Of a DNA stretch of 64,000 bases, positions 42,760-49,694 are shown in pieces. A program made the translations under genes and the position numbers. How positions within the stretch are numbered: position 1 is the stretch's first letter; every line of letters starts with the position of its first letter. The notes beneath the pieces were generated by a model. That model did not search any database. It saw only the letters and a program-made list of their open reading frames with translations, and had not been told where the DNA came from. The stretch spans positions 24,079 to 88,078 of the forward strand of contig JACNKX010000148.1 of the NCBI GenBank assembly GCA_014381825.1. Direction: 5' to 3'. This stretch comes from Planctomycetota bacterium. Lineage in GTDB: Bacteria > Planctomycetota > Planctomycetia > Pirellulales > Pirellulaceae.

Positions 42760-44124
42760 TCACACTAACTCGGAAAGCGGTTGTGGCTGACCTTCGACCA
42801 GATACTGCGGTCGCCCACCAAGATCCGGAATCGTGGCTAGATTCGCATCGATCCCAAGGTTGCGATAGAGCGTCGCATAGATCTCAGGAAAGGTGACCGC
42901 GCGGTCAACCGCTTCGCCGCCAAGGCGACCCGTTGCGCCGATCACTTGCCCGGTCTTCATCCCTCCGCCGGCCATCAAGGCACAATTCACGCGAGGCCAG
43001 TGATCGCGACCGACTTGAGCGCTGATCTTTGGAGTACGACCGAACTCGCCCCAGATGATCACAGTGCAGTCTTTGTCGAGCCCGCGTTCGTGCAAGTCTT
43101 CGACCAACGCGCTAACGCACTTGTCGAACGGAGGAAAATCTTCGGCTTCGCGTTTGAAGATCGAATTGTTCGCGCCTCCGTGCCAATCCCACTTGCTGTA
43201 GTTCAATGTCACAACCCGAGCGCCGGCTTCGATCAGTCGTCGAGCTGCGAGTAAACTTTGCGGAACGCGTGGTGCACCGTTCCCGTCCATAAACTTCGTT
43301 GGGTCGCCCGTTCCATAACGCTCGACAATCTTAGGATCTTCTTTTGATAGGTCTAGCGCGTCCGCCAACTTCGACGATGTCAGCATGTCGATCGCCTGCG
43401 ACGTGAACGTGTCAATTCCTTCAAGCGTTGTCGTGTTGTCGACGTCGCGTTTTAGCCGGTCGACACTTTTTAGTAGCTGCTGTCGATCTCCAAGTCGGTC
43501 CAGTGTCACACCGTTCAGCACCATATCCTCTCGGGTTGGACCCATCGGGCGGAATGGCGAGTAAGACGTGCCTAGAAATCCGGACCCAGGCTCATTGTAG
43601 GGGCCGTGTGTACATGGATAACAAAGGCTCACGAACGGAGGAGCCGCCGCGCCGGTCGCGCCTTGTACTTTAGCGACCGATGATCCGAATTGGGGCCAGC
43701 CCCCGGCAGGCTTTGGCTTCTTCGGATCGAAACCGTTGAAGACTTGTACCGCGTCATGCCCTGACTGTGACCCGACGATGGAACGAATCGGAACGAGTTT
43801 GTCCATGATGCGGGCGAGCATTGGAAATGCTTCGCAGATCTCGATCCCTGGCACGTTGGTTTCGATTGGCCGCCACGGTCCCGCCACTTCAACGGGAGCA
43901 TTTGGTTTGAGATCGAACATGTCTTGATGCGGCGGTCCGCCGACCAAGTAGATCATGATCACTGATTTGTTTGAATTCTTAATGCCAGCTGCTGCTTCAG
44001 AACGCAACAGGCGAGGCAGCGTCAACCCGGCGACACCGAGTGACCCGATTTTCAATAGGTCTCGTCTCGATACGCGATCGCAGAATGCCGCGCTTGAGTG
44101 AGTGGGGCCTTGGATCGTTAGCAT
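42760..44124 (-). CDS. DUF1501 family protein, solitary copy
   Basis: 454 residues; GGAGGTG lies five bases before the ATG and an extended -10 sits upstream. The N-terminus has a Tat-like signal (VSRRDLLKIGSLGVAGLTL). DUF1501 motifs: VIMIYLVGGPPHQDMFDLKP near residue 55, GPWRPIETNVPGIEICEAFP, LNYSKWDWHGGANNSIFKRE, IIWGEFGRTPKISAQ and GRDHWPRVNCALMAGGGMKTG. Unlike the other three, it has no PSCyt1 partner; an amidohydrolase gene follows instead, suggesting a different pathway. Confidence 0.92.
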   Translation of the reverse strand: MLTIQGPTHSSAAFCDRVSRRDLLKIGSLGVAGLTLPRLLRSEAAAGIKNSNKSVIMIYLVGGPPHQDMFDLKPNAPVEVAGPWRPIETNVPGIEICEAFPMLARIMDKLVPIRSIVGSQSGHDAVQVFNGFDPKKPKPAGGWPQFGSSVAKVQGATGAAAPPFVSLCYPCTHGPYNEPGSGFLGTSYSPFRPMGPTREDMVLNGVTLDRLGDRQQLLKSVDRLKRDVDNTTTLEGIDTFTSQAIDMLTSSKLADALDLSKEDPKIVERYGTGDPTKFMDGNGAPRVPQSLLAARRLIEAGARVVTLNYSKWDWHGGANNSIFKREAEDFPPFDKCVSALVEDLHERGLDKDCTVIIWGEFGRTPKISAQVGRDHWPRVNCALMAGGGMKTGQVIGATGRLGGEAVDRAVTFPEIYATLYRNLGIDANLATIPDLGGRPQYLVEGQPQPLSELV

Positions 44125-44329: not shown

Positions 44330-45361
44330 ATGCGACAAATCTCTCGTCGCCGGTTTGTCTGTTTTATGGCGGGGGTCGGTACTTCGGCTGGTGTCGTCGC
44401 CGCTCTACGCCTTGGTCGCGAGCAAGATACGTCTTCGACCTCAAGCCGTGAAGTACATCGTCTCAGTCGCACGTCATGGGCGTTGGGGTCCGATGTGTCA
44501 ATCACTCTCTTGCATCACGACAGGGCGGCTGGCGAAGCGGCGATCGATGCGGCCTTCAACGAAATAGAAGTGATTGAGGAGGTGATGAGCATCTATCGCG
44601 CGCACAGCCAGTTGTCTCGGCTGAATCGTAATGGCGTGGTCGATGATCCGCATCCGTATTTTGTTGACGTCCTTCGTGCGGCACTGGCAATGTCTAGCCG
44701 GAGCGACGGGGCGTTTGACGTGACGGTTCAACCGCTGTGGGATCTCTATGCGACGGCGCAGCGTCTGGAACAGCTCCCTTCAGATGAGGACATCGAGTCA
44801 GCTCGACATGATGTTAACTGGAAGCAATTGCACATCGAACAAGCTCAGATTCGTCTTGACGGTGAGCGTTCCGCGATCACGTTAAATGGAATCGCTCAAG
44901 GCTTTGCCGCGGATCGCGTGGCGGATGTGCTGCGAGAACACGGAGTCAACAATGCATTGATCGACACCGGCGAATTAGGAGCGTTGGGAGCGAAAGAAAC
45001 CGGTGACCCATGGAGTATCGGCATTCAACACCCGCGTGATCGCGATGCATACATTTCTGTCGCCGAGTTGAAAGGGCGATGCTTGGCAACATCGGGTGAT
45101 TATGCAACAAGGTTCAGCGACGATCACCGTCATCACCACCTGCTTGATCCTCGGACAGGCCGCTCGCCGAGCGACTTATCGAGCGTCTCGATCGCCGCGA
45201 ACACTGCACTGGAAGCGGATGCTCTGTCCACCGCAGTGTTCGTGATGGGAGCTGAGCGAGGAACGAAGCTTGTCGAACAAACACCCGGAGCTGATGCGTT
45301 GTTGGTGCTGAAGGACGGTCGTTCCGTTGCAACAGCCGGTTTCCCAAGCATCCAAGCGTGA
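44330..45361 (+). CDS. apbE: FAD:protein FMN transferase (ApbE family)
   Basis: From ATG 44330 (AAGGA seven bases upstream) 343 residues. The N-terminus carries a Tat-like signal (SRRRFVCFMAGVGTSAGVVA). ApbE motifs are SIYRAHSQLSRLNR, SDGAFDVTVQPLWDLY, LNGIAQGFAADRV (Gln where many members have Lys), LIDTGELGALG, LATSGDYATRF, HHHLLDPRTGRSP and ALEADALSTAVFVMG, the last with the conserved metal-site Asp. The enzyme transfers FMN from FAD onto a Thr of partner proteins outside the cytoplasm. The next gene encodes an FMN-binding protein, its obvious substrate, and a polyferredoxin lies further down. Confidence 0.93.
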   Translation: MRQISRRRFVCFMAGVGTSAGVVAALRLGREQDTSSTSSREVHRLSRTSWALGSDVSITLLHHDRAAGEAAIDAAFNEIEVIEEVMSIYRAHSQLSRLNRNGVVDDPHPYFVDVLRAALAMSSRSDGAFDVTVQPLWDLYATAQRLEQLPSDEDIESARHDVNWKQLHIEQAQIRLDGERSAITLNGIAQGFAADRVADVLREHGVNNALIDTGELGALGAKETGDPWSIGIQHPRDRDAYISVAELKGRCLATSGDYATRFSDDHRHHHLLDPRTGRSPSDLSSVSIAANTALEADALSTAVFVMGAERGTKLVEQTPGADALLVLKDGRSVATAGFPSIQA

Positions 45362-45372
45362 GAGGCAACGAC

Positions 45373-46713
45373 ATGCCCGACCCAGTAAGCACGCGCTGTA
45401 CTGCCTCCTTACTTCAGTCGAAGTTCGACGTTGGACGTTCGATGTTCAACGTTTGCTTTTGCTTCATCGTTTGTTTTGCTCCGGTACCGCTCTTCGCTGC
45501 CGATCTCGTCGAGTTTCTTAACGGCGCAAAGGCGACCGGATCAATGAAGCAAATTCGCAAAGAGAAGAAGGAGTTCGACTTCGAGATTCAGCTAGGCGGT
45601 CGCAGGTTGGTGAGAACTTATACCTTCGACAAAATTCATGCCGTCACGATGAAGGGTAAGCGTTATGTCCTTACTCCGATGAGCGAAGGTGCAGCGGCCA
45701 ACAGCGAATCAGGTTCGACGGTCCTACGCACCAAGGCACAGGTATTGGAGCTAATCGATACCGTCGGTCGGACGGCTCCCGATTGGTTCGATCAAGCACC
45801 GCTGGATTACCCCAAGACGCTGGAAATCGACTGGCCTTTAAAGCCGGAGGGCAAAGGTTGGGATGAAAGCAAGAATGTCGGTCAATATAAGTGGGGTGTG
45901 ATCAATCCTAACCCTGGCCGCTGGCAGTCAGGCGTGCGGTTAGTACACCACATCATGACCCTGCACCAGGCTCAACCGACTCTCTTGCAGCGTGACATGA
46001 ATGTTCTCGGCGAGATGTACTTCGAGCTGTTTCAAGATTATCCGCGAGCCGCCTTTTGGCTACGGCAAGCCAAAGTGAAGACTCCCGAACCGCAGAGTAT
46101 CCATTTGGCTGAATGCTATTGGCGCATGGGAAACAAGCAAATGGCGACCGAAGTATTGGACGCACGCAGTTTGCCATCCAACGCGATCAAGTTGCTGGGC
46201 GAATTGGGCCAAACCGATCGAGCGCTACGGCTCGCTGGCGCTTTCGCAAAGATGAATCGACCTCACGAGGCGTACCTGCTTGCGGGCGACGCATGTCGAT
46301 TGGTAAATCGTCACGAGGAAGCGATCGATTATTACCAAAAGGTCATCGACGCTCCGCAGGCCCGAAACGAGGACTACAGCAAGCGATATCGCGGGCGAGC
46401 GAAAGACAGTATCGAAGCAATTGAGTTGTCTGAGAAAGCTGACGTGTCAAAAGTCGCCGACGGAACCTACCGAGCGTCGAGCGTCGCTTACAACGGTGCG
46501 CTAGACGTCGAAGTCCGTGTCGTCGCCCATCGAATTGAACAGGTGAAGATCACCAAGCATCGCGAGAAGCAGTTCTATGCGGCCTTGACCGACACACCGA
46601 ATCAGATCATCAAGAAGCAATCGGTCAACGAAATCGACGCGACGAGTCGCGCAACGATTACTTCGCAAGCGATCGTCAATGCGACTGCGAAGGCGCTTGC
46701 TACGGGTAACTGA
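45373..46713 (+). CDS. Secreted TPR-like protein with C-terminal FMN-binding domain
   Basis: I chose ATG 45373, with AGAGG seven bases upstream (446 residues); GTG 45358 overlapping the apbE stop, and ATG 45442 at the signal peptide itself, are alternatives. The signal core is FNVCFCFIVCFAPVPLFAAD. Residues ~30-110 form a short beta domain (FEIQLGGRRLVRTYTFDKIH). Helical repeats like TPR follow (MNVLGEMYFELFQDYPRAAF, LAECYWRMGNKQMATEVL, NRHEEAIDYYQKVID). The last ~85 residues are an FMN_bind domain: DGTYRASSVAYNGALDVEV and VNEIDATSRATITSQAIVNA. The flavinylation motif keeps the acceptor Thr but has Arg where Gly is usual. It likely carries covalent FMN placed by ApbE. Confidence 0.85.
   Translation: MPDPVSTRCTASLLQSKFDVGRSMFNVCFCFIVCFAPVPLFAADLVEFLNGAKATGSMKQIRKEKKEFDFEIQLGGRRLVRTYTFDKIHAVTMKGKRYVLTPMSEGAAANSESGSTVLRTKAQVLELIDTVGRTAPDWFDQAPLDYPKTLEIDWPLKPEGKGWDESKNVGQYKWGVINPNPGRWQSGVRLVHHIMTLHQAQPTLLQRDMNVLGEMYFELFQDYPRAAFWLRQAKVKTPEPQSIHLAECYWRMGNKQMATEVLDARSLPSNAIKLLGELGQTDRALRLAGAFAKMNRPHEAYLLAGDACRLVNRHEEAIDYYQKVIDAPQARNEDYSKRYRGRAKDSIEAIELSEKADVSKVADGTYRASSVAYNGALDVEVRVVAHRIEQVKITKHREKQFYAALTDTPNQIIKKQSVNEIDATSRATITSQAIVNATAKALATGN
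45423..45453 (+). repeat. Four tandem 7-base repeats in gene start region
   Basis: GTTCGAC GTTGGAC GTTCGAT GTTCAAC GTT is a heptamer tandem array of consensus GTTSRAY. It encodes the residues just before the signal peptide (KFDVGRSMFNV) and includes a possible ATG start at 45442. Similar FDV-type heptamer arrays occur, from memory, between genes in planctomycete genomes. Confidence 0.75.
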
Positions 46714-46808
46714 TCTGAGGATACTGTTGCCCGCGCCACGAATTGTTGCCTATGATGAACTGATGTTCTGTGCATGTTAATAACGATCGTTTTACCCACA
46801 TCTGTTCA

Positions 46809-47465
46809 ATGCGTCCCATCACAGCCGATATCCTGGTCGAACAACTTGCGCTCGCCGACGCCTTGCTTGTCGGAAGGGAATCTATGCTTACACCGCAAGA
46901 GTTACCAGGACGCTACGGTCGTGTGGTTCATGCCATCGACCGCGTTTTGCAGGCGACTGAATGCGAAGCTGTTGTTGGCGGCGGTTGGGCAGTTTGGCGG
47001 CATGGCTTCGTCAATCGCGTGACCCAAGACATCGATATTCTACTTCCCTCGGATCGTATCGAAGAGTTCTTGCAGGTGGCTTCTGTCAGTGGGTTTCAGG
47101 TGCTGACGAGTGGGCCGGGACGTTGGCCCAAGCTGCTGCATAAAGAGACTGATGTTCAGGTCGACATTCTGCCCGAAGGCGAACGTCCAGGTATGTTGCC
47201 GGATCTAGCGCCGACGATGATTCCGTCACCACAACAACTCGGTGCTGTATCCGGTGCGTTAACGTACGTGGGAATTAACACCCTGGTGGAATTGAAACTT
47301 GCGGCGGCGAGATTCAAGGATAAGGCAGATGTCGTGGAAATTATCCGCGCGAACCCTGATAAGATCAGCGGTATTCGGACGCACCTCGCCGGCGTGCACG
47401 CTCAGTACGTCGAATTATTTGAATCGCTCGTGGAAGAAGCACGTAAGGCCGACGCGCAGCGCTAA
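46809..47465 (+). CDS. Nucleotidyltransferase-fold protein
   Basis: About 218 residues from ATG 46809; ATG 46770 would add 13, and no ribosome site decides between them. The core is VVGGGWAVWRHGFVNRVTQD followed by DIDILLPSD, the Gly-Gly...Asp-x-Asp pattern of the Pol-beta nucleotidyltransferase superfamily, as in AbiEii-like and aminoglycoside nucleotidyltransferases. A later KLLHKETDVQVDILPEG may supply the third acidic residue. The C-terminus is helical (VELKLAAARFKDKADVVEII). No antitoxin-like partner is adjacent. It sits between the flavoprotein and polyferredoxin genes, 21 bp before the latter, although nothing in its sequence suggests a redox role. Confidence 0.72.
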   Translation: MRPITADILVEQLALADALLVGRESMLTPQELPGRYGRVVHAIDRVLQATECEAVVGGGWAVWRHGFVNRVTQDIDILLPSDRIEEFLQVASVSGFQVLTSGPGRWPKLLHKETDVQVDILPEGERPGMLPDLAPTMIPSPQQLGAVSGALTYVGINTLVELKLAAARFKDKADVVEIIRANPDKISGIRTHLAGVHAQYVELFESLVEEARKADAQR

Positions 47466-47486
47466 CTGACTGGGGCCTCGTCCACC

Positions 47487-49694
47487 ATGCGACTCAATTG
47501 GTTCTTACCATTTCTCCGTAAGAAGAAGAAAAGTGAGTCGCTTGCGCCACCGTCGTTGATGATGCGCTGGGCGCTGATCGCCCTGCCGCGTTCTTGGTTC
47601 GCTGACCGAGTTACGGGAAAGCCGGGACGGATTCGGAAGCTCTTCAAACGCATCGGCCCTTCAGTCTTGTCGTCGCCGATACGCCGACTTGTTCAGGCGG
47701 TCTGTTTCCTGGCGTTTTTGGTCCTGTTTTTCTACGTCTGTTGGCCGTATAGCGCACGGCCCGTCGTGGATGGCCAGACGTCGGAAGGCTGGAGATTTAT
47801 CGAAGTTGAACAAGAAGCAGGGACGTTTCGCTTTGAAGCACCGGAGCGGCCCGCTTGGATCGAACGTGATGAGCAGGTCGTGCATGTGACCGGCAGCGCT
47901 GCGAGCGCTGCCTACGTTGGCGCTTTCGAAATTGCGGATTCTGACGCAAGCGGCGTGTCGCTTCGTCCGGTTGACGTTATGTCGCCCGAAGCGTTCGACC
48001 AATTGCTCCTCGCTCGCGATACGTGGTCGCTGTGCGAGACTGAGCCGAATCGATGGCCCTCGCACTATGCCGACGATCTTCAGAGAAAAGAGTTTGTTTC
48101 CGCCGAACTGTTTCTTGCGATCGACCCGCTGGTGAGCTTGTCGACGGCCATCGCATCGCGAAGTTGGGTGTGGTCGCTGACGAGTGCGGCAATCATTCTG
48201 GTCGTTTGCGTTCTGATACCGCGTGGCTTCTGTGGGTACTTGTGCCCACTTGGCACGTTGATTGATCTGTTCGATTGGAGTCTTGCGGGACGTGCGAAGC
48301 GTTTCCGTGTCGCGGACGACGGTTGGTGGGTTCACATCAAGTACTATCTACTAATTGGTACGCTTGTCGCTGCGATGTTTGGTGTGTTGGTTTCCGGTTA
48401 CGTAGCGGCGATTCCTGTGATAACTCGTGGAATGCTGTTTGTAGGCGACCCACTTCAGAGCGGTATGTCGCGCGGTTGGCATCTCGTACCTGAGATCCAT
48501 AGCGGGCATGTTTTCTCGCTTCTTCTCTTCGCGGTTGTCCTCTGCCTCGGATTCTTACAGCCGCGTTTCTGGTGCAAGTATGTTTGTCCCAGTGGCGCAG
48601 TCTTCTCTCTCGGCAGCTTGTTTCGAGTCACGGAGCGGAAGGTAGAATCGACCTGCATCAATTGCAACAAGTGCGTCGAGATCTGCCCGTTCGACGCGAT
48701 CAAGCCTGACTTCACCACTCGCACGACCGATTGCACGCTTTGCCAAACTTGCGGCGGTGTCTGTCCGACCCATGCGATTAAGTTTGTCGAGCGTTGGAAT
48801 TTGGTCGAGTTAAAGATCGAGAACGATCCGCCAACTCACGAGACATCGCTCGGCCGCCGCGGCTTTCTCTCGCTTGCGGCTGGCGGGGCCGCTGCGATTG
48901 TTGGCGGTACGGGCGTTGCTGTTGCCACACGTTCGTTCGGGGCGAGGCTCGACGATCCGACGTCTTTCCGTCCAGTTCGTCCGCCGGGAAGTGTCCCGGA
49001 GCAACAATTCTTGGAGATGTGTATTCGCTGTGGCGAGTGTTTCAAAGCATGTCCGAACAACGTGCTGCAAGTCGAAGGCTTTCAGCAGGGGCTGGAAGGG
49101 CTATGGACGCCACTAGTGAATGCAGACTGGGCAGGTTGCGAATCGAGTTGCAACGCCTGCGGTCAGGTCTGCCCAACAGGAGCGATACGCGCGCTGCCGC
49201 TTGAAGAGAAAAAGGTCGCGCGCATGGGACTCGCAATCGTCAATGAAACCACATGCCTGCCGTTTGCAAATCGAGAAGCATGTCAGTTGTGCGTCGACGA
49301 ATGCAATGCCGCTGGCTACGAAGCAATCGAGTTCGTTAATGTTCATACCGAAGTTGATAACAGTGGCATCCCTGTCGAAGGATCTGGTTTCGTCGCCCCT
49401 GTCGTACTCGCCGACAAGTGTGTTGGCTGCGGCTTGTGTCAAACTCGTTGCCATGCAATCAACGTGAAGGAAAAACAATTGCTCGCTGGCTCGGCAATCA
49501 TGATAGAAGCTGGCTTGGGCAAAGAAGATCGCATGATGACGGGCTCGTATATTCAGTTGCGAGAAAGCGAATCTCAACTCCAAAAGGCTACGCCGCCGCA
49601 GAATGAGTTCTTCGTTCCGTCACACGACGCGTCGTCAAGTGAGCCGGTCGAAGTCGAGCCGAGTGATGACGATCCCTTCGGGTTGGGATCGTGA
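47487..49694 (+). CDS. NapH-NapG-like polyferredoxin fusion, membrane bound
   Basis: 735 residues. A basic N-terminus precedes a first helix at ~69-87. Residues ~90-210 form an external domain I do not recognise. Helices at ~227-245, 286-311 and 341-358 follow, with NapH-type RGFCGYLCPLGTLID and FWCKYVCPSGAVFSLGSLFR. Two ferredoxin clusters come next (CINCNKCVEICP and CTLCQTCGGVCP at ~390-427). A twin-arginine motif, SLGRRGFLSLAAGG, at ~454 opens a NapG-like half carrying CIRCGECFKACP, SCNACGQVCPTGAIR, CQLCVDECNAAGYE and CVGCGLCQTRC. At least six Fe-S sites can be counted. It probably passes electrons across the membrane to the flavinylated protein upstream. The C-terminal 40 residues are acidic. 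Confidence 0.88.
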   Translation: MRLNWFLPFLRKKKKSESLAPPSLMMRWALIALPRSWFADRVTGKPGRIRKLFKRIGPSVLSSPIRRLVQAVCFLAFLVLFFYVCWPYSARPVVDGQTSEGWRFIEVEQEAGTFRFEAPERPAWIERDEQVVHVTGSAASAAYVGAFEIADSDASGVSLRPVDVMSPEAFDQLLLARDTWSLCETEPNRWPSHYADDLQRKEFVSAELFLAIDPLVSLSTAIASRSWVWSLTSAAIILVVCVLIPRGFCGYLCPLGTLIDLFDWSLAGRAKRFRVADDGWWVHIKYYLLIGTLVAAMFGVLVSGYVAAIPVITRGMLFVGDPLQSGMSRGWHLVPEIHSGHVFSLLLFAVVLCLGFLQPRFWCKYVCPSGAVFSLGSLFRVTERKVESTCINCNKCVEICPFDAIKPDFTTRTTDCTLCQTCGGVCPTHAIKFVERWNLVELKIENDPPTHETSLGRRGFLSLAAGGAAAIVGGTGVAVATRSFGARLDDPTSFRPVRPPGSVPEQQFLEMCIRCGECFKACPNNVLQVEGFQQGLEGLWTPLVNADWAGCESSCNACGQVCPTGAIRALPLEEKKVARMGLAIVNETTCLPFANREACQLCVDECNAAGYEAIEFVNVHTEVDNSGIPVEGSGFVAPVVLADKCVGCGLCQTRCHAINVKEKQLLAGSAIMIEAGLGKEDRMMTGSYIQLRESESQLQKATPPQNEFFVPSHDASSSEPVEVEPSDDDPFGLGS

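Follow-up and report, generated by a model that had tools for sequence, protein, structure and literature searches.

A conserved planctomycete gene set pairing a TPR-FMN_bind protein with a NapH-NapG fusion, and its possible role in flavin-based extracytoplasmic electron transfer

In a planctomycete genome, genes for an FMN transferase, for a predicted exported TPR protein with a C-terminal FMN_bind domain, and for a NapH-NapG-like polyferredoxin lie close together within a 64,000-nucleotide stretch of DNA (hereafter the window, meaning the whole stretch analyzed). This locus raises the question of whether these genes form a set that is conserved beyond this genome, and, if so, which way electrons may flow through it and whether its FMN_bind domain is likely to be flavinylated.

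Gene layout and predicted protein architecture

Family profile matches that passed their cut-offs confirmed the place, the plus strand, and the order given for these three genes in the initial annotation. The row described there has the correct members but omitted one gene, which lies between the second and third. The features are as follows:

44330..45361, + strand: ApbE (FAD:protein FMN transferase); PF02424, 259.5 bits (cut-off 25.6)
about 45442..46713, + strand: TPR protein with C-terminal FMN_bind, predicted exported; PF04205, 42 bits (cut-off 22), and TPR matches
46636..46656, + strand: flavinylation motif D-A-T-S-R-A-T; from the sequence, an alignment of 34 relatives, and the consensus in PMC12052999
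46770..47465, + strand: nucleotidyltransferase-like gene, 231 aa; PF10706, weak match, 27.5 bits
47487..49694, + strand: NapH-NapG fusion, 735 aa; 4Fe-4S families and PF12801, 43.5 bits (cut-off 22)
47757..48035, + strand: extra extracytoplasmic domain of NapH-NapG (about residues 91-183); from an alignment of relatives

The nucleotidyltransferase-like gene is probably a local insertion outside the module. It separates the TPR-FMN_bind and NapH-NapG genes only in the window, a homology search of the related loci found no homolog in any of them, and the gap between its two flanking genes is 773 nt here and does not exceed 254 nt in the remaining direct-neighbor pairs. Upstream, a DUF1501 gene (42760-44124) is divergent from the ApbE gene and is kept in two related loci (L008 and L009). 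In the same genome as the window, a second TPR-FMN_bind gene (G000:C75; L084:6026-7408), whose product is 44% identical and has the motif D-A-T-A-S-A-T, also adjoins a DUF1501 gene and has no NapH-NapG or ApbE gene nearby.

The ApbE has a Tat-like N-terminus (MRQISRRRFVCFMAG), and its alignment to solved ApbEs contains equivalents of the catalytic Ser/His/Asp triad (SGDY, HLLDPRTG, and EADALST). The TPR protein probably starts at ATG 45442 (or 45373), and its N-terminus is hydrophobic and signal-like in the window and in relatives, as judged from hydropathy. TPR matches are located at about residues 278-332, followed by FMN_bind (PF04205) at residues 378-447. An AlphaFold model (pLDDT 74) predicts an FMN_bind fold at the C-terminus, preceded by an N-terminal beta domain (absent from many relatives) and an array of TPR helices. 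The modeled FMN_bind part matched the crystal structure of CbFMN4 domain 1 (8p2b) with a TM score of 0.79 by target length and an rmsd of 1.6; the Foldseek E-value was 0.08, so the FMN_bind assignment rests on the Pfam match.

In the fusion protein, profile comparison placed a NapH-like part at residues 212-438 and a NapG-like part at residues 453-667. Hydropathy peaks were found at residues 68-86, 226-244, 294-312, 339-357, and 461-479, with an additional weak peak at 204-222. Apart from two CX3CP motifs, the cysteines form two [4Fe-4S] motifs at residues 390-426, between segments 4 and 5, and four at residues 512-655, after segment 5; because they give two plus four clusters, the earlier description of a six-cluster polyferredoxin was right. 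A twin arginine (residues 457-458) directly precedes segment 5 and is kept in all aligned NapH-NapG relatives, including the distant ones (with a one-column shift in L081). Segment 5 has a hydropathy peak of 1.68, versus 2.17-2.43 for the four main segments, and is followed by Arg residues. We infer from this layout that the NapG half and its four clusters lie on the extracytoplasmic side, with the other two clusters on the cytoplasmic side.

The extra domain between segments 1 and 2 is present in the window and in three related loci (L008, L010, and L013) and is missing from the other aligned copies. It is beta-rich, with a local pLDDT of about 75 within a poor overall model (pLDDT 42), and had no family match and no convincing fold match. 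We also considered a hidden FMN_bind domain in this loop, which was unsupported, as the poor structure model gave no recognizable match; a profile search likewise found no PF04205 in the NapH-NapG protein.

Conservation in Planctomycetota and proposed electron path

The TPR-FMN_bind and NapH-NapG genes form a conserved module in Planctomycetota that occurs together more often than expected by chance. Among 294 Planctomycetota genomes, 14 encode TPR-FMN_bind, the same number encode the close NapH-NapG form (defined as >400 bits), and 13 encode both (hypergeometric P about 1e-20, a value that ignores the kinship of the genomes). The one genome counted as having NapH-NapG only (G056) has a more divergent TPR-FMN_bind gene adjoining NapH-NapG (L101). 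In a search with named organisms, all full-length relatives belonged to Planctomycetota. Across many planctomycete families, with genes missed in ORF picking at related loci recovered by tblastn, the two genes are mostly direct neighbors on one strand with short gaps or overlaps. Both are present in a cultured planctomycete, strain TBK1r (L013). The gene-neighborhood check suggested for the TPR-FMN_bind protein thus came out positive: NapH-NapG is conserved beside it, often together with ApbE. A linked ApbE is common and not universal, being absent from many loci, and three loci (L009, L011, and L084) have TPR-FMN_bind without NapH-NapG nearby. Across loci, the three proteins have correlated identity matrices (r = 0.87, 0.97, and 0.85; none of 2000 permutations reached these values), a pattern that shared species history alone can also produce.

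Variants of this arrangement were also observed. At L092, two TPR-FMN_bind and two NapH-NapG genes alternate in one apparent operon with a single ApbE gene. More distant NapH-NapG fusions at L078, L080, and L081 belong to a different recurrent set, with DUF362 beside them at L078 and L080, and a DUF6599 gene beside the fusion at L078 that has a homolog at L081.

Among the annotated neighbors at many loci, no other gene, including any for a reductase, dehydrogenase, or detoxification enzyme, recurs beside the set across lineages. A conserved partner enzyme was rejected as a candidate: the neighbors are mutually unrelated (peptidases, GyrB, PPK2, Mur ligase, porin, GH97, RhuM, and others). Two recurrent neighbor clusters (c10 and c11) are probable antisense ORFs over the NapH-NapG or TPR gene.

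The families, the topology, and the conserved neighborhood give good support to the initial reading of the locus as a set for flavin-based electron transfer outside the cytoplasm. In our judgment, the set is likely a NapH-like flavinylation system in a planctomycete form, moving electrons from the membrane to a periplasmic TPR carrier with covalently bound FMN. The NapH half, with four helices, two CX3CP motifs, and two cytoplasmic-side [4Fe-4S] clusters, would take electrons from menaquinol or a cytoplasmic donor. The NapG half, placed outside by the internal twin-arginine helix, would pass them via its four [4Fe-4S] clusters to the TPR-FMN_bind protein, which may be soluble or envelope-bound. 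The ApbE, encoded in the same operon and presumably exported, would attach FMN to the Thr of D-A-T-S-R-A-T, and the TPR part may serve to dock this carrier, either to the NapG domain or to a separate partner encoded elsewhere. This explanation is favored by the families, the cluster motifs, the neighborhood, the 13 of 14 co-occurrence, the correlated identity matrices, the predicted FMN_bind fold match, the invariant Thr and Ala of the motif, and published precedents for each half. Against it stand the Gly-less motif, the TPR-FMN_bind loci without NapH-NapG, the many loci without a linked ApbE, and the lack of a linked terminal enzyme.

The direction of flow bears on the first alternative, an inward chain in which an extracytoplasmic dehydrogenase reduces the TPR-FMN protein and NapH-NapG returns the electrons to the quinone pool. 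NapH-like proteins adjoining an ethanol oxidase were proposed to run inward (PMC8238504), and no reductase is linked at the loci examined; on the other side, NapGH is a characterized quinol dehydrogenase (PMC5449189, which cites Brondijk 2004 and Kern and Simon 2008), and dehydrogenase genes are likewise not conserved next to the set. We regard an inward chain as unlikely. The distribution bears on the second alternative. The set is patchily distributed within the class, where 22 of 298 genomes have TPR-FMN_bind; this patchiness, the TPR domain, and the absence of a linked terminal enzyme would suit a role of NapH-NapG and the TPR protein in envelope redox upkeep or cofactor maturation, with the TPR part as an assembly scaffold, instead of respiration or catabolism. 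Such a role appears rather improbable, given that no maturation gene is conserved nearby and that the covalent-FMN domains of known role are electron carriers (reviewed in PMC12052999).

It is very improbable that the set belongs to a standard Nap, Nos, or dehalogenation chain with its reductase elsewhere in the genome, as might be supposed from the NapH/NapG homology. For Nap, the neighborhood contains no NapA, and a molybdopterin oxidoreductase search of the genome found none by the curated cut-off. The highest-scoring NapA-like protein found in the genome, at 340 bits where the cut-off is 930, matches the models for formate dehydrogenase and assimilatory nitrate reductase more closely. Searches of the genome for nos_propeller and Dehalogenase gave no matches; the controls were also silent, so both absences are weak.

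Flavinylation motif and type of ApbE

ApbE recognizes the consensus D-x-x-[ST]-G-A-[ST] (PMC12052999). The motif in the window, D-A-T-S-R-A-T (residues 427-433 counted from GTG 45358), keeps four of the five specified positions and has Arg at the Gly, such that it departs from the full consensus, a point missed in the earlier interpretation. Its last Thr is the predicted FMN acceptor. In another protein, a change from Gly to Ala alone cut flavinylation to about 50% (PMC12052999); because of this effect and the replaced Gly, FMN attachment in the window protein is not assured. Among the 34 aligned relatives, the Ala and Thr are invariant (34/34), and the Gly position has Gly in 12, Asn in 7, Ser in 6, Arg in 5, Ala in 3, and Gln in 1.

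The ApbE of the window falls in a distinct clade. When all ApbEs of 35 genomes were compared with it, they formed two groups with none between, one with at least 50% identity (>300 bits) and the other with at most 40% identity (up to 165 bits). The close-type ApbEs share replacements at sites that are near-fixed in the generic type, for example E94Q, V107P, S108H, G134Q, K190Q, and P279S (numbering of the window ApbE, generic residue first). Generic ApbE copies (C70 and C68) are also encoded in the genome of the window.

The state of the Gly site is associated with the type of ApbE. Non-Gly residues were found in 17 of 19 loci with a linked ApbE versus 8 of 29 without. By genome, with one residue entered for each multi-copy genome (G145, with one Gln and one Gly copy, counted as non-Gly), Gly was lost in 11/12 genomes with a close-type ApbE versus 4/23 without (Fisher p = 3e-5). 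By rows, excluding four long-branch loci and the unlinked contigs of unsurveyed genomes, the loss was 21/22 versus 4/21 (p = 2e-7). Because rows and genomes share ancestry, these Fisher values cannot be read as if the events were independent, and the first count of the association came from the data that had brought it to notice. Of the four exceptions, three have Ser, a mild change from Gly. On the tree, the Gly site changed six to seven times, giving too few independent pairs for significance; the independent pairs that differ (1.6 on average) all do so in the same direction and none in the opposite one, and for the linked-ApbE count the corresponding numbers are 2.6 versus 0.1. Among the surveyed genomes, Arg and Asn at this site are confined to those with both ApbE types. 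A prediction of the co-evolution idea is that non-Gly genomes without a linked ApbE carry a close-type ApbE elsewhere; of four single-copy genomes, one (G130) bore this out and three (G399, G517, and G564) did not.

For comparison, 14 other FMN_bind stretches from some of these genomes were examined; 12 have a motif of this type, all with Gly, and no motif of the flavinylation type was found in the stretches at L176 and L004. The comparison shows that Gly is the rule for other FMN_bind proteins in the phylum; because a close-type ApbE is present in the source genome of only one of these 12 (L001, from the same genome as the window), it is not a side-by-side test of the ApbE types.

These patterns suggest a co-evolved pair of ApbE and substrate, for which the independent events are too few to constitute proof. 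It is conceivable, and we put it forward only tentatively, that the operon ApbE and the TPR-FMN_bind protein form an insulated pair with the altered code D-x-x-[ST]-X-A-T (X = Arg, Asn, Ser, or Ala), which the ordinary ApbEs of the same cell would modify poorly; lineages lacking the special ApbE mostly carry the ordinary Gly. The association between motif and ApbE type is a lead and not a demonstration. If the motif change is a real change of code, then ApbE specificity can be rewired, which would bear on flavin-tagging methods.

Comparison with known systems

The combination seen here had been described as unusual, and this holds only in part. Fused NapH-NapG proteins have been published (PMC5449189), as have NapH-like proteins with a separate FMN_bind protein (PMC8238504), such that each part is of a known kind, while the combination with a TPR-FMN_bind partner was not found described in these two papers. 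The main text of PMC8238504 mentions neither TPR nor Planctomycetes, and such clusters may be in its supplementary tables. Among the NapH-like flavinylation systems, the two-gene form with a separate FMN_bind protein accounts for 539 of 2465 gene clusters (Meheust et al. 2021; PMC8238504). Like these, the window has a gene for a membrane Fe-S protein of the PF12801 family next to genes for an FMN_bind protein and an ApbE, with PF12801, PF04205, and PF02424 in one cluster; the differences are that the FMN_bind domain is carried by a TPR protein and that NapH is fused to NapG.

The fusion protein closely resembles the polyferredoxin Q1NSB0 of the delta proteobacterium MLMS-1 (Tooke et al. 2017), a NapH-NapG fusion that was Tat-dependent by reporter fusions and whose first segments were taken as Sec-inserted (PMC5449189). 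Both have five membrane segments, a twin arginine directly before segment 5, positive charges after it, and four outer clusters. The sequence of the window protein, with about five segments in one chain, the twin arginine, a segment 5 of low hydrophobicity, and the positive charges that follow, is consistent with the same dual Sec/Tat layout. It differs in the number of predicted inner [4Fe-4S] clusters, two against three in the MLMS-1 protein (CX3CP counted apart), in the additional beta domain that some planctomycete copies have after segment 1 and before segment 2, and in its operon with TPR-FMN_bind.

In NosR and PceC, a NapH-like membrane protein is likewise linked to covalent FMN, whereas the FMN_bind domain is fused to the membrane protein there and separate here. 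The genome of the window also encodes a NosR-like protein with two FMN_bind domains and Fer4_5 (G000:C140; L085:8396-12449), located beside FAD_oxidored/Golvesin_C proteins, which is possibly another flavinylated system. CbFMN4 and other multi-flavinylated proteins share the FMN_bind fold (8p2b) but contain several tandem FMN_bind domains, in contrast to the single domain on a TPR array found here. Few of the published NapH-like flavinylation systems have a known reaction, and the set described in this work extends them by a conserved planctomycete module.
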